A program made the position numbers and the translations under genes. DNA of 44,974 nt, from assembly GCA_023701385.1 (NCBI GenBank), contig JAMPXC010000027.1, positions 1 to 44,974 on the forward strand, written 5' to 3'. Below are positions 28,760 to 32,671 of this stretch, in pieces; the first letter of the stretch is position 1; each line of letters starts with the position of its first letter. The notes beneath the pieces were generated by a model. It did no database searches. It was not told the DNA's origin and saw nothing but the letters and a program-made list of their open reading frames with translations. Source of the DNA: Pseudobdellovibrio sp. (GTDB taxonomy: Bacteria > Bdellovibrionota > Bdellovibrionia > Bdellovibrionales > Bdellovibrionaceae).

Positions 28760-30379
28760 TTAGTTATGGTGAACGCGCTCAACGTACTCAGGATATGTCA
28801 TATCGTAAGTCGTTAAGTGGTTTTTATCGATTTCAAACACGCGCGTTGTGATTTCACGTAAGAAGAAACGGTCATGGGATACCATCATTACCGTGCCTGG
28901 AAATTCTTTAATCGCTTTAAGTAAAACTTCACGTGATTTGATATCTAAGTGATTCGTCGGCTCATCCAGCACTAAGAAGTTCACTGGCTGAGATAAGATA
29001 CACGCTAAAATTACACGTGATTTCTCACCACCTGATAAGATCGAAATTTTCTTTTCAACTTCTTCACCCGAGAATAAGAAAGCACCCAGTAAAGATTTAA
29101 TAGAACCCATCGAAGCATTCGGTACACGTTGTTCAACTTCTTGTAAGATCGTGTTGTTTGGATTTAATAAATCTAAACTGTTCTGCGAGAAGTAACCTAA
29201 CTGAATCGATGGACCTACGTTACAAGTTCCAGAAGAAGCTTCTGTTTGCTTAGTGATGATTTTAAGTAATGTCGATTTACCGGCACCGTTCACACCGACA
29301 ACCGCTACGCGGTCCAAACGTTTTACTAACGCTGTGGCGTTGTTAAATACGTTTTTATCACGGCCATCAGATAAGTGATAAGTTTTGCCAAGCTTTTCAA
29401 ACTTAACAACTTCTTCGCCACCACGAGGTGGTTCTGGCCAGATAAAATCCATCGCGCGATCTTCTGGTGGAATTTCGATACGATCAATTTTTTCTAATTT
29501 CTTAACACGCGATTGAACTTGCGCTGCATGCGAAGCACGGGCTGCGAAGCGAGCAATAAACTCTTCTTCTTTAGCTAACATATCTTCTTGGCGTTTTGCT
29601 GCTGCGATCAATTGTTCTTTTCTGATTTGGCGTTCTTTATCGTAGTAATCGTAGTTACCGCCGTACACAGTGATTTGCTTATTAGAAAGTTCGATTGTTT
29701 TTGAACAAAGACGATTCATGAAATCACGATCATGCGAAGTCATTAGCACAGAGCCTTTGAAGTCTCTGATCCATTGTTCAAGCCATACGATCGATTCAAC
29801 ATCTAAGTGATTCGTCGGCTCATCGAGTAATAATACATCTGGCATTAATAATAAAATCTTCGCTAATGAGGCGCGCATTTTCCATCCGCCTGAGTACTGC
29901 CCGATATCCATTTGCATATCTTCGTTAGAAAAACCAAGACCACCCAAGATCGCTGCTGCACGTGGTTCTACGTCATAGCCACCAACCGCTTCAAATTGCT
30001 CTTGAAGAGCTCCGTATTTTTCAACAACATCCATCATCTCGTCTTCACCAAGTTCCGGATCTTGTAAGCGTTCTTCGTAGTGTTTGATTTGATCAACGAT
30101 TTTATCAAGGCCACCAGAAGCTAGAACTTCTGCTAATACTGAACGGCCTTTCATGTTCTCGATGTTCTGAGAGAAGTAACCAATACGTACACGCTCTGGT
30201 TTTGAAATAGTTCCTTGATCAGGAGATTCTTCACCCATGATTAAACGAAAGATTGTCGTCTTGCCGGCGCCATTCGGGCCCACTAAGCCGATTTTATCGC
30301 CGGGATTAATTTGAAATGAACCATTCGAATACAGAATTTTTGTTCCAACTTGTTTTGTAACGGCGTTAAAAGCGACCAT
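28760..30379 (-). CDS. ABC-F family ATPase (translation factor type)
   Basis: 539 residues with two ABC cassettes and no membrane domain. Walker A GPNGAGKTT and GVNGAGKST; signatures YSGGWKMR and LSGGEKSR; Walker B LLLDEPTNHLD and LVLDEPTNHLD. Between them lies a charged coiled P-site tRNA-interaction linker (KERQIRKEQL...SRVKKLEKI). Closest in layout to the YbiT/Uup-type housekeeping ABC-F proteins, which act on the ribosome E site. The leader carries a terminator-like hairpin (30427-30452). The sequence after the stop is the hairpin at 28670-28729. Confidence 0.93.
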   Translation of the reverse strand: MVAFNAVTKQVGTKILYSNGSFQINPGDKIGLVGPNGAGKTTIFRLIMGEESPDQGTISKPERVRIGYFSQNIENMKGRSVLAEVLASGGLDKIVDQIKHYEERLQDPELGEDEMMDVVEKYGALQEQFEAVGGYDVEPRAAAILGGLGFSNEDMQMDIGQYSGGWKMRASLAKILLLMPDVLLLDEPTNHLDVESIVWLEQWIRDFKGSVLMTSHDRDFMNRLCSKTIELSNKQITVYGGNYDYYDKERQIRKEQLIAAAKRQEDMLAKEEEFIARFAARASHAAQVQSRVKKLEKIDRIEIPPEDRAMDFIWPEPPRGGEEVVKFEKLGKTYHLSDGRDKNVFNNATALVKRLDRVAVVGVNGAGKSTLLKIITKQTEASSGTCNVGPSIQLGYFSQNSLDLLNPNNTILQEVEQRVPNASMGSIKSLLGAFLFSGEEVEKKISILSGGEKSRVILACILSQPVNFLVLDEPTNHLDIKSREVLLKAIKEFPGTVMMVSHDRFFLREITTRVFEIDKNHLTTYDMTYPEYVERVHHN

Positions 30380-30426: not shown

Positions 30427-30452
30427 AAAAAAGGCCATGATGGCCTTTTTTT
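30427..30452. terminator. terminator-like hairpin in the ABC-F leader
   Basis: AAAAAAGGCCATGATGGCCTTTTTT is a self-complementary stem with T runs on both strands, about 50 bases upstream of the ABC-F start. A TTGATT/TATAAA-like promoter lies just right of it on the minus strand, so the ABC-F mRNA would start with this hairpin; or it insulates the divergent riboswitch RNA. Confidence 0.6.
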
Positions 30453-30829
30453 GAGACGTTTTATATTCTTTTTTGAGATTAATCAAAAAAAATTGGAAAT
30501 ACAATTCGCACCCAGGCTATTCTAGATTCATACAAGATCACTAAGCTTTGTAAGCTTACTAACGTATGCCGGGTAAAGGTCGTAAGGCCAAGTCAACCTG
30601 GGTCAGTTGTTAGTTCAATGGGAGGGACGTTATATGAAGCGAATTTACGATCATAACGATAAAGCACCGAAGTGACGATGCGATAAATAAAATATTTAAC
30701 CGTTTATGAGGCGAAACCCGTTTACATGGTGTAGGCGCGGTTCGAGTTGACTCTTTTATATTCTGCCGAAGGCAGATATTTAACACTAGAGGAGGTCACT
30801 AGCGGTTTTAAAGTATACGGGTAATTCCG

Positions 30830-30918
30830 TATCCTTCTTTTGCCTCAAGGCAAACCAGGGGGAACTCTGGGACGCAAAGCTATAGGGGCTACAAATGCCA
30901 GCCAGCTGCCAAAGGATA
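30830..30918 (+). promoter_or_regulatory. cyclic di-GMP-I (GEMM-I) riboswitch aptamer
   Basis: P1 pairs TATCCTT with AAGGATA. Inside lie GGCAAACC and the CCAGGG-GGAA-CTCTGG hairpin with a GNRA tetraloop, then the invariant GGGACGCAAAGC and GGGGCTAC, and the closing GCCAGCCAGCTGCC. These match the class I c-di-GMP aptamer, including the tetraloop and its receptor arm. The P1 5' strand overlaps the upstream ATACGG hairpin, so the two helices may compete or stack. Confidence 0.93.
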
Positions 30919-30994
30919 TAAGAACCTGCGGTGAAGACTGCAATGGAAGGAAAAAAAATTACATTTTATTTCATGGATTGGTTTCATTCCCCTT

Positions 30995-31039
30995 AACTCT
31001 AAACTTATCAGTGGATGACAAAGTTTAGAGTTTTTTTTT
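30995..31039 (+). terminator. terminator of the riboswitch RNA
   Basis: AACTCTAAACTT-N14-AAGTTTAGAGTT is a perfect 12-bp stem followed by a run of T. Confidence 0.95.
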
Positions 31040-31309: not shown

Positions 31310-32671
31310 TTAAATACGCGGAATGTTTAAACGTAAACCTGCGCGTAATTTAGACTTTCTTTTGATACCATTCGCTTTGCTTAATTCGATAACAGACATA
31401 TCGAATTTGTCGGCGATTGAAGCTAATGTGTCGCCTCTTTTTACTACGTAGAAGTCTGATGTTGTAACTGTGCTTTGTGACTTCTTTTTTTCTTTTGTTG
31501 ATCTGCGTTCTTGTAATGGTGTGCGATCTGGTACTACGATTTTTTGGCCTACACGGATTGTTTTCTTTCTTGAGAAATCATTTAACTCACGTAAGTACGC
31601 CACTGTTGTTCTGTATCTTCTGGCGATTGAACCTAAGTTATCACCGCGTCTTACTTTGTAGTATTGTGTTTCTACTTGGTCAGGTACGAAATCTACGATG
31701 CTGGCGACTGATGTAGAAGCGGCTGTCATCGCCACTTCCATTGTGCCTGCTGGGATTCTTAGGCTTAATGTATTGTCTTTATCTAACGGCGCAATTTCAC
31801 CTTTGAATTTTGGATTTAAATCTTTGAAATCTTCGTAGTTGAAGTTCATTTTTTCAGCCATCATTCTTAAGTTAACTGGCTCTTTTAATGTCACGTGGTC
31901 GAACTCAATCGGCGTCATGTAATCGATGCCTTCAAATCCGTATTTATCTGGATTTTTTGCGATCAATTTAGCAGCGATATATTTTGGTACGTAATTGTCT
32001 GTTTCTGACGGTAACGCACGTCTATTTTGAGAAAGCTCCCAGAAATCTTTTGTTTTGTATTTTCTTACGGCTTTGATCACGCGGCCTTCACCTACATTGT
32101 AGGCGGCCATTGATAAATACCATGAATTAAAAATTGAATATAAATCTCTGAAGTATTCAGCAGCGGCTTGCGTTGCTAAAACCGGGTCACGACGCTCATC
32201 AACCATTTTGTTGATGTCTAAGCTATAGCGTTTTCCTGTACCACGAATGAACTGCCAGTAACCTACAGCCGATGCATGTGATCTTGCAGAAGAAGAAAAA
32301 CCTGATTCGATTAAAGCGATGTAGAATAAATCTTCTGGTAACTTGTTATCGCGTAAAACTTTTTTCATTAACGCTTCATAACGAGTTGAACGGGCTAAAT
32401 ATCTTTCCATGTGTGGGCGGCCACGACCTTGGAAGTATTTGATCCACATTTCAACTTTTTCATTAATTTCTGTCGGAATAGTTTCTAACTCTTGGTTCTC
32501 TGTAACTTTTGAAGCTTCTTTTTCATCTTCTTTTACACGAAACTTTTCTAAATCACCGTTTTGATCGTACTCTTTGCCTAAATTTGCAGAAGGTGTTGCT
32601 GACGGTGTGGTCGCACAACCAAATGAAACACACAATAATGCTGTCAAAATCATACTAGACGTTAGTCTCAC
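31310..32671 (-). CDS. mltD: MltD-type membrane-bound lytic transglycosylase
   Basis: 453 residues. Lipoprotein: lipobox VSFGC, Cys19. The SLT domain spans about 105-240 with catalytic Glu122 in ALIESGFSSSA, then SAVGYWQFIRGTGKRYSL and MAAYNVGEGRV. Two LysM domains follow, about 337-381 (VRRGDNLGSIARRYRT) and 407-453 (VKRGDTLASIADKFDM), joined by a basic Lys/Ser linker. LysM binds GlcNAc-containing glycan, and the SLT domain cleaves between MurNAc and GlcNAc. The domain order matches MltD. It is followed by repeat copy 2 and convergent to the riboswitch RNA. Confidence 0.93.
   Translation of the reverse strand: MRLTSSMILTALLCVSFGCATTPSATPSANLGKEYDQNGDLEKFRVKEDEKEASKVTENQELETIPTEINEKVEMWIKYFQGRGRPHMERYLARSTRYEALMKKVLRDNKLPEDLFYIALIESGFSSSARSHASAVGYWQFIRGTGKRYSLDINKMVDERRDPVLATQAAAEYFRDLYSIFNSWYLSMAAYNVGEGRVIKAVRKYKTKDFWELSQNRRALPSETDNYVPKYIAAKLIAKNPDKYGFEGIDYMTPIEFDHVTLKEPVNLRMMAEKMNFNYEDFKDLNPKFKGEIAPLDKDNTLSLRIPAGTMEVAMTAASTSVASIVDFVPDQVETQYYKVRRGDNLGSIARRYRTTVAYLRELNDFSRKKTIRVGQKIVVPDRTPLQERRSTKEKKKSQSTVTTSDFYVVKRGDTLASIADKFDMSVIELSKANGIKRKSKLRAGLRLNIPRI

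Follow-up and report, generated by a model that had tools for sequence, protein, structure and literature searches.

A merRNA orthologue of Pseudobdellovibrio carries conserved micro-ORFs and a candidate c-di-GMP switch at the start of one of them

Introduction

The closest described relative of the RNA analyzed here is merRNA of Bdellovibrio bacteriovorus HD100, which was mapped to positions 1,073,741-1,074,185 (-) by Karunker et al. 2013 (PMC3627812). That report gives expression values of 2,038,479 RPKM in attack phase versus 407 in growth phase, and massive attack-phase-specific expression has been demonstrated only for HD100, where merRNA reads come to about as many as those of all protein genes together. 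The RNA is described there as lacking a conserved downstream ORF and conservation beyond Bdellovibrio, and is proposed to act as a c-di-GMP reservoir (PMC3627812). Later papers that name merRNA repeat this description in the passages available, and the sponge model has been the sole proposal for its role since 2013. The open-access merRNA literature makes no mention of encoded peptides in its available passages (subscription journals and preprints lay outside the search); an earlier report of merRNA micro-ORFs may exist.

The aptamer of this RNA belongs to the c-di-GMP-I class, whose ligand contacts are made by G20, A47 and C92 (PMC4744006). The published affinity for c-di-GMP is about 1 nM, as cited in PMC3627812, and Bdellovibrio also makes cGAMP (PMC9140294). 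Here we analyze a locus from Pseudobdellovibrio sp. within a stretch of 44,974 nucleotides (contig JAMPXC010000027.1), hereafter the window, and compare it with its relatives across the phylum.

Results

A self-terminated RNA with a single aptamer

The only riboswitch that cmscan reports in the whole window is a c-di-GMP-I aptamer (RF01051) on the forward strand (Table 1). The match covers the full model (positions 1-87) with 62.9 bits (E 4e-10) against a gathering score of 35, which bears out the aptamer proposed in an initial annotation made from the sequence alone; it is the sole copy in the source genome. No other Rfam family exceeded its own cut-off in a permissive-threshold scan of the region, and a blastn search of a phage collection returned no relative.

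The unit lies inside a 930-base gap with an ettA-like gene divergent and an mltD-like gene convergent. The initial annotation had described a hairpin-rich RNA of about 500 nt that ends in its own terminator and faces a convergent gene, and this description stands: from its predicted start to the T-run the RNA measures 509 nt and folds 3.2 SD better than dinucleotide shuffles (z -3.2), and its T-run hairpin is followed by the mltD-like gene on the opposite strand. The terminator stem covaries within genus g4, and no same-strand structural gene is present in the window 3' of it. The putative promoter was missed by a generic consensus scan; its TTGGAA and TATTCT elements are similarly placed in most members of the genus. 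A separate terminator-like hairpin, AAAAAAGGCCATGATGGCCTTTTTTT, which could serve either strand, lies at 30428-30453, between the ettA-like start codon and the promoter.

Table 1. Coordinates of features at the merRNA-orthologue locus (window positions).
Feature	Position	Strand	Evidence or remark
Divergent ABC-F (ettA-like) gene	28760..30379	-	Pfam ABC_tran, ABC_tran_Xtn
Putative sigma70-type promoter	30493..30523	+	TTGGAA 30493-30498, 19 nt, TATTCT 30518-30523
Predicted merRNA-orthologue transcript	about 30531..31039	+	homology to HD100 merRNA ends; fold z -3.2
Shine-Dalgarno GGGAGGG of micro-ORF-A	30620..30626	+	sequence; GGAGG/GGGGG there in orthologues
Micro-ORF-A, MKRIYDHNDKAPK-stop, 13 codons	30634..30675	+	synonymous-substitution test, three groups
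AGGAGG without start codon	30790..30795	+	near-invariant in family; possible alternative partner of P1/P0 5' strand
ATACGG/CCGTAT hairpin	30815..30832	+	conserved with changes in genus g1
P0, 5' strand (UCCUUCU)	30832..30838	+	covariation with GGAAGGA
Aptamer P1, 5' strand (UCUUUUG)	30836..30842	+	pairs with 30910-30916
c-di-GMP-I aptamer (RF01051)	30839..30913	+	covariance-model match, 62.9 bits
Anti-P1 hairpin UUUGCC-UCAA-GGCAAA (ligand-free state)	30839..30854	+	RNAalifold consensus, two genera
Aptamer P1, 3' strand (CAAAGGA)	30910..30916	+	pairs with 30836-30842
Hairpin GCGGU-GAAG-ACUGC, between aptamer and ORF-B	30928..30941	+	consensus helix in both genera; GNRA-type loop in relatives
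Micro-ORF-B, MEGKKITFYFMDWFHSP-stop, 17 codons	30943..30996	+	frame conservation in relatives
P0, 3' strand (GGAAGGA)	30945..30951	+	contains G of ORF-B AUG; covariation, fold
Intrinsic terminator	30995..31039	+	hairpin with T-run, overlaps ORF-B stop; sequence, fold
Convergent SLT/LysM (mltD-like) gene	31310..32671	-	Pfam SLT, LysM; neighbour kept in many relatives

Orthology with merRNA and distribution

A genome of 3,782,950 bp in our set (G003), which we take to be that of HD100, has its sole aptamer at 1,073,868-1,073,951 (-), within the published merRNA coordinates. Because the HD100 aptamer falls inside the mapped merRNA, we conclude that the window RNA is a merRNA orthologue, as the earlier label "merRNA-like" had anticipated; aptamer position, own terminator and single copy are all found in the window RNA.

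Of the 66 genomes in the family search, 59 had a single aptamer. In the order, 89 of 141 genomes carry it, one copy each, and in the phylum 137 of 369, never in more than one copy. Visual inspection of individual loci generally showed a terminator-like stem and its T-run shortly after the aptamer. Judged by these genomes, neither the lack of a conserved downstream ORF nor the lack of relatives outside Bdellovibrio holds against the wider set, and what was reported in 2013 as confined to Bdellovibrio is a single-copy element spread through the phylum. One genome that is 97% complete (G032) and the drafts G017, G019, G021, G027, G055 and G064 yielded neither the aptamer nor the ORF-B motif described below, an absence that is uncertain because most of these assemblies are fragmented.

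The convergent mltD-like neighbour is found in most of the genus and also in several other families. In Bacteriovoracia-like families queE lies on the same strand 3' of the element, beyond a gap; we rejected it as a target there, since a separate terminator intervenes.

Ligand-contact positions

The presumed equivalents of G20, A47 and C92 were placed on the window sequence by way of the Vc2 aptamer. The motifs at the ligand-contact places (GGCAAA, GCAAAG and GCCAAA) are retained in the window; of 127 loci, 126 keep the G20 equivalent and every one has CC at the C92 place. Because the equivalents of G20 and C92 are conserved, the comparison argues for c-di-GMP rather than cGAMP as the ligand; cGAMP was considered as a candidate, and the G at the G20 place speaks against it.

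Retention of these bases in nearly all 127 loci is also in keeping with a pure reservoir, in which the RNA would store c-di-GMP in attack phase and release it at the growth switch, the micro-ORFs being irrelevant or decoys. The extreme attack-phase abundance in HD100 and the lack of a downstream protein gene, as given in PMC3627812, point the same way. A sponge, however, needs neither coding selection on an upstream ORF, nor the keeping of a downstream frame, nor a covarying competition between P1 and P0, all of which are described below, and we consider the pure reservoir unlikely.

Micro-ORF-A is under coding selection

Most Bdellovibrionales loci contain an ORF of 9-19 codons with a strong Shine-Dalgarno sequence at a variable distance 5' of the aptamer (ORF-A). 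Its consensus is M(K/R)RI(F/Y)xHNDKxPK-stop in the genus of the window, MKNRIHDHHDEPPK-stop and sequences like it in the Bdellovibrio genus, while other families have ...(D/E)WRLDPPP(K/E)-stop. The synonymous fraction of codon differences is 0.58, 0.59 and 0.51 in three independent groups, versus 0.18-0.23 in column-shuffled alignments (the observed value was reached in 0/1000, 0/1000 and 1/1000), 0.05-0.13 in the other frames of ORF-A and 0.06 in a control stretch 3' of the stop. In the D-P-P-P codons of the other-family group, the first two codon positions have a diversity of 0.00-0.11 and the third one of 0.35-0.78. By this comparison ORF-A is shown to be under coding selection, and lineages of the tested groups translate it or did so recently. 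The HD100 ORF-A stands 64 nt within the mapped transcript. ORF-A was not recognisable in about one third of the loci of the family (e.g. in all of genus g19), nor in Bacteriovoracia-like families.

At about -322 and -233 relative to the aptamer, one locus, L069 (genome G140), has two tandem ORF-A-like micro-ORFs, MSIAKFLRLDPPPE-stop and MAKVKIFRLDPPPE-stop. A conserved motif, TCACCAGGATTGCTAC, also stands between ORF-A and the aptamer in many loci of the family.

Micro-ORF-B keeps its frame next to the aptamer

The second micro-ORF (ORF-B) starts 29 nt 3' of the aptamer match in the window. Of 58 loci, 53 have its frame open from the ATG, whereas frames +1 and +2 are open in 8 and 12; frame or start is lost in L020, L028, L045, L003 and L005, and the stop in L034, L035, L040 and L046. 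In most species of the family it ends in ...DWFHSP-stop, and this stop overlaps the terminator. Between the ATG and the conserved end there are 15 to 60 nt across the family, and 23 of 29 genus-by-length classes are in frame (multiples of three; binomial p 5e-7 if the classes are independent). Where the ATG stands further 3', GGAAGG is found at Shine-Dalgarno distance from it. The last codons are invariant at the DNA level, so that RNA-level and peptide-level constraint on the end of ORF-B are inseparable, and because of this invariant end and the frame exceptions we put translation of ORF-B no higher than likely. No copy of the ORF-B motif that might act in trans was found, GGTTTCATTCCCC occurring once in the genome.

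In family f5, loci L068, L080 and L087 have a micro-ORF with an AAGGAGG Shine-Dalgarno sequence 3' of the aptamer that runs into the terminator (C-run loop); in L087 it reads MGFNCCLHPPYSPQ-stop.

The initial annotation had assigned the aptamer no target gene. This was not borne out, as two micro-ORFs conserved in relatives lie inside the RNA, ORF-B immediately after the aptamer. The RNA is not simply non-coding: by comparison with relatives, one small conserved peptide is certainly encoded and a second one probably is.

The invariant 3' half of ORF-B (GGUUUCAUUCCCCUU) could instead be an untranslated RNA element pairing back to the ribosome-binding site of ORF-A (AAGGAGG...AUGAAR). This pairing is present in the MFE structure of the window RNA, and the second codon of ORF-A, AAR or AGA in the family, gives full complementarity to UUUCAU in 36 of 42 loci versus 7 of 19 elsewhere. 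We nevertheless rejected the 3' half as an antisense of the ORF-A start, since the duplex-energy control failed, the ORF-A sites of families without the element pairing at least equally well; moreover, genus g19 retains the element while lacking ORF-A, and the in-frame length changes of ORF-B would be left unexplained. We regard a fold-back role as improbable.

The overlap of the ORF-B stop with the terminator stem also bears on a ribosome-gated terminator, in which translation of ORF-B would cause read-through into the mltD-like gene and yield a c-di-GMP-controlled antisense RNA. That the convergent mltD-like gene recurs in many relatives, other families included, would suit such a gate, which is improbable in view of the HD100 merRNA stopping at its terminator with massive coverage (PMC3627812) and of the mltD-like neighbour not being seen in most of genus g4.

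Competition between P1 and P0 at the start of ORF-B

The start of ORF-B falls in a helix, P0, whose sixth pair is C-G in 35 sequences, A-U in 6 and U-A in 2, with six pairs in all; in L054 the strands read GCUUUCC versus GGCAAAGC. Among distinct rows of the alignment 92% of P0 cells are paired, a level reached by 0 of 500 shuffles, and slid helices reach 38-64%. P1 and P0 share bases 30836-30838. The arrangement of a translational riboswitch, an aptamer helix set against a helix that holds a downstream ORF start, is therefore found here, with P1 overlapping P0 and P0 covarying. Because the ORF-B start codon lies in this covarying helix, the initial claim that the RNA is unable to control a coding sequence 3' of it is probably mistaken. 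P0-like complementarity is also seen in other families of the order at lower significance (mean z -1.2, 28 loci).

RNAalifold predicts P1 for the whole family, and within two genera it predicts P0 together with an anti-P1 hairpin that takes up the P1 strand. Across 56 single-sequence folds without ligand, P1 has a probability of 0.02 and the anti-P1 hairpin a mean probability of 0.62. When P1 is forced, P0 is lost and the mean cost is about 4.6 kcal/mol, which the published ligand affinity of about 1 nM would pay. The predicted accessibility of the ORF-B start then rises from 0.34 to 0.40 on average (up in 33 of the 56 sequences), with no change for the window sequence itself; the predicted gain being small, it speaks only weakly for a direction of switching.

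The ATACGG/CCGTAT hairpin, earlier described as competing with P1, is present, but it has no overlap with P1 and abuts P0 at 30832. Pairing of the AGGAGG at 30790 with the P1/P0 strand was also considered; the sequence permits it and covariation speaks neither way, as the site has no variation in which covariation could be seen. In loci L090-L121 (families f22 and f26), CCCCUUUG 5' of the aptamer can pair either with CAAAGGAGG (P1) or with another CAAAGGGGGG more distant on the 3' side, and an upstream UGAAGAGG is complementary to CCUCUUCA before the terminator; these loci can be read as a different but parallel switch design.

A ligand that alters the exposed segments would also suit an RNA acting in trans, by titrating CsrA or by base-pairing with mRNAs. 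CsrA is encoded in the genome, and GGA motifs number 11.2 per RNA versus 7.6 in shuffles (mean z 1.6). This enrichment is small, most of the GGAs are Shine-Dalgarno or helix elements, and we therefore rejected the CsrA sponge; codon-level conservation is not predicted by any action in trans, which we hold to be very improbable.

Discussion

In the best explanation, to which we give a probability of roughly 0.5, the RNA would be dual-function, with c-di-GMP remodeling P1 and P0 at the start of ORF-B. Besides carrying micro-ORFs, the merRNA orthologue would be transcribed and terminated on its own and would bind c-di-GMP. Without ligand, the UUUGCC/GGCAAA hairpin and P0 would hold the AUG/GGAAGG of ORF-B; binding of c-di-GMP would let P1 form, which would displace the anti-P1 hairpin along with the inner pairs of P0. 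This rearrangement would alter ribosome access to ORF-B, most likely opening it, although this direction is a guess. Since the ORF-B stop overlaps the terminator stem, ribosome occupancy could affect termination, and since the RNA is abundant, as known for HD100, it would also titrate c-di-GMP. ORF-A would then be a constitutive leader, and ligand titration by mass would be combined with ligand-controlled access to ORF-B. Both the functions of the peptides and the direction of switching are inferred.

Slow termination is established in general for poly-proline and C-terminal proline. Because ORF-A and ORF-B end in PP(P)(K/E)-stop and SP-stop, their endings suggest, by analogy, slow termination and a role of the ribosome as a regulatory leader rather than a folded peptide. 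More tentatively, and at somewhat less than even odds, merRNA, the most abundant RNA of attack-phase Bdellovibrio, may together with its relatives throughout the phylum be a riboswitch-controlled mRNA for one or two peptides of 13-17 residues or ribosome-stalling leaders.

If this more tentative reading is true, c-di-GMP would set the ribosome load on a hugely abundant RNA as the predator leaves attack phase, and a riboswitch would have a micro-ORF as its sole target gene. merRNA is old, being phylum-wide, and partly coding, and its aptamer competes with the start of a micro-ORF. Single-base mutants in the start codons, P0 and P1 would separate the sponge, riboswitch and peptide models directly.

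Comparison with known systems

The HD100 merRNA, orthologous to the window RNA, is a self-terminated RNA of 445 nt with a single c-di-GMP-I aptamer in its 3' half. Described as non-coding, without a conserved downstream ORF and restricted to Bdellovibrio (PMC3627812), it holds both ORF-A (MRTHEHHDDELK-stop) and ORF-B (MEGTNTYKDWFHSP-stop) inside the mapped transcript, their starts being at 1,074,121 and 1,073,832 on the minus strand. The window RNA differs from that description in its conserved ORF-B frame downstream of the riboswitch and in an upstream ORF-A that passes the coding test; its membership is unaffected by these ORFs because the HD100 RNA departs from the description likewise.

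With the c-di-GMP-I (GEMM-I) riboswitches of RF01051 it shares the full aptamer and the conserved equivalents of G20 and C92. The usual members precede an ordinary protein gene, whereas here the sole downstream ORF is a micro-ORF of 17 codons and the element occurs exactly once per genome in its carriers across the phylum. Leader-peptide attenuators of the tnaC type likewise have short ORFs ending in Pro-stop or Pro-Pro-Lys/Glu-stop and an adjoining terminator; unlike tnaC, the RNA has no same-strand structural gene past the terminator in the window, and stalling is putative.
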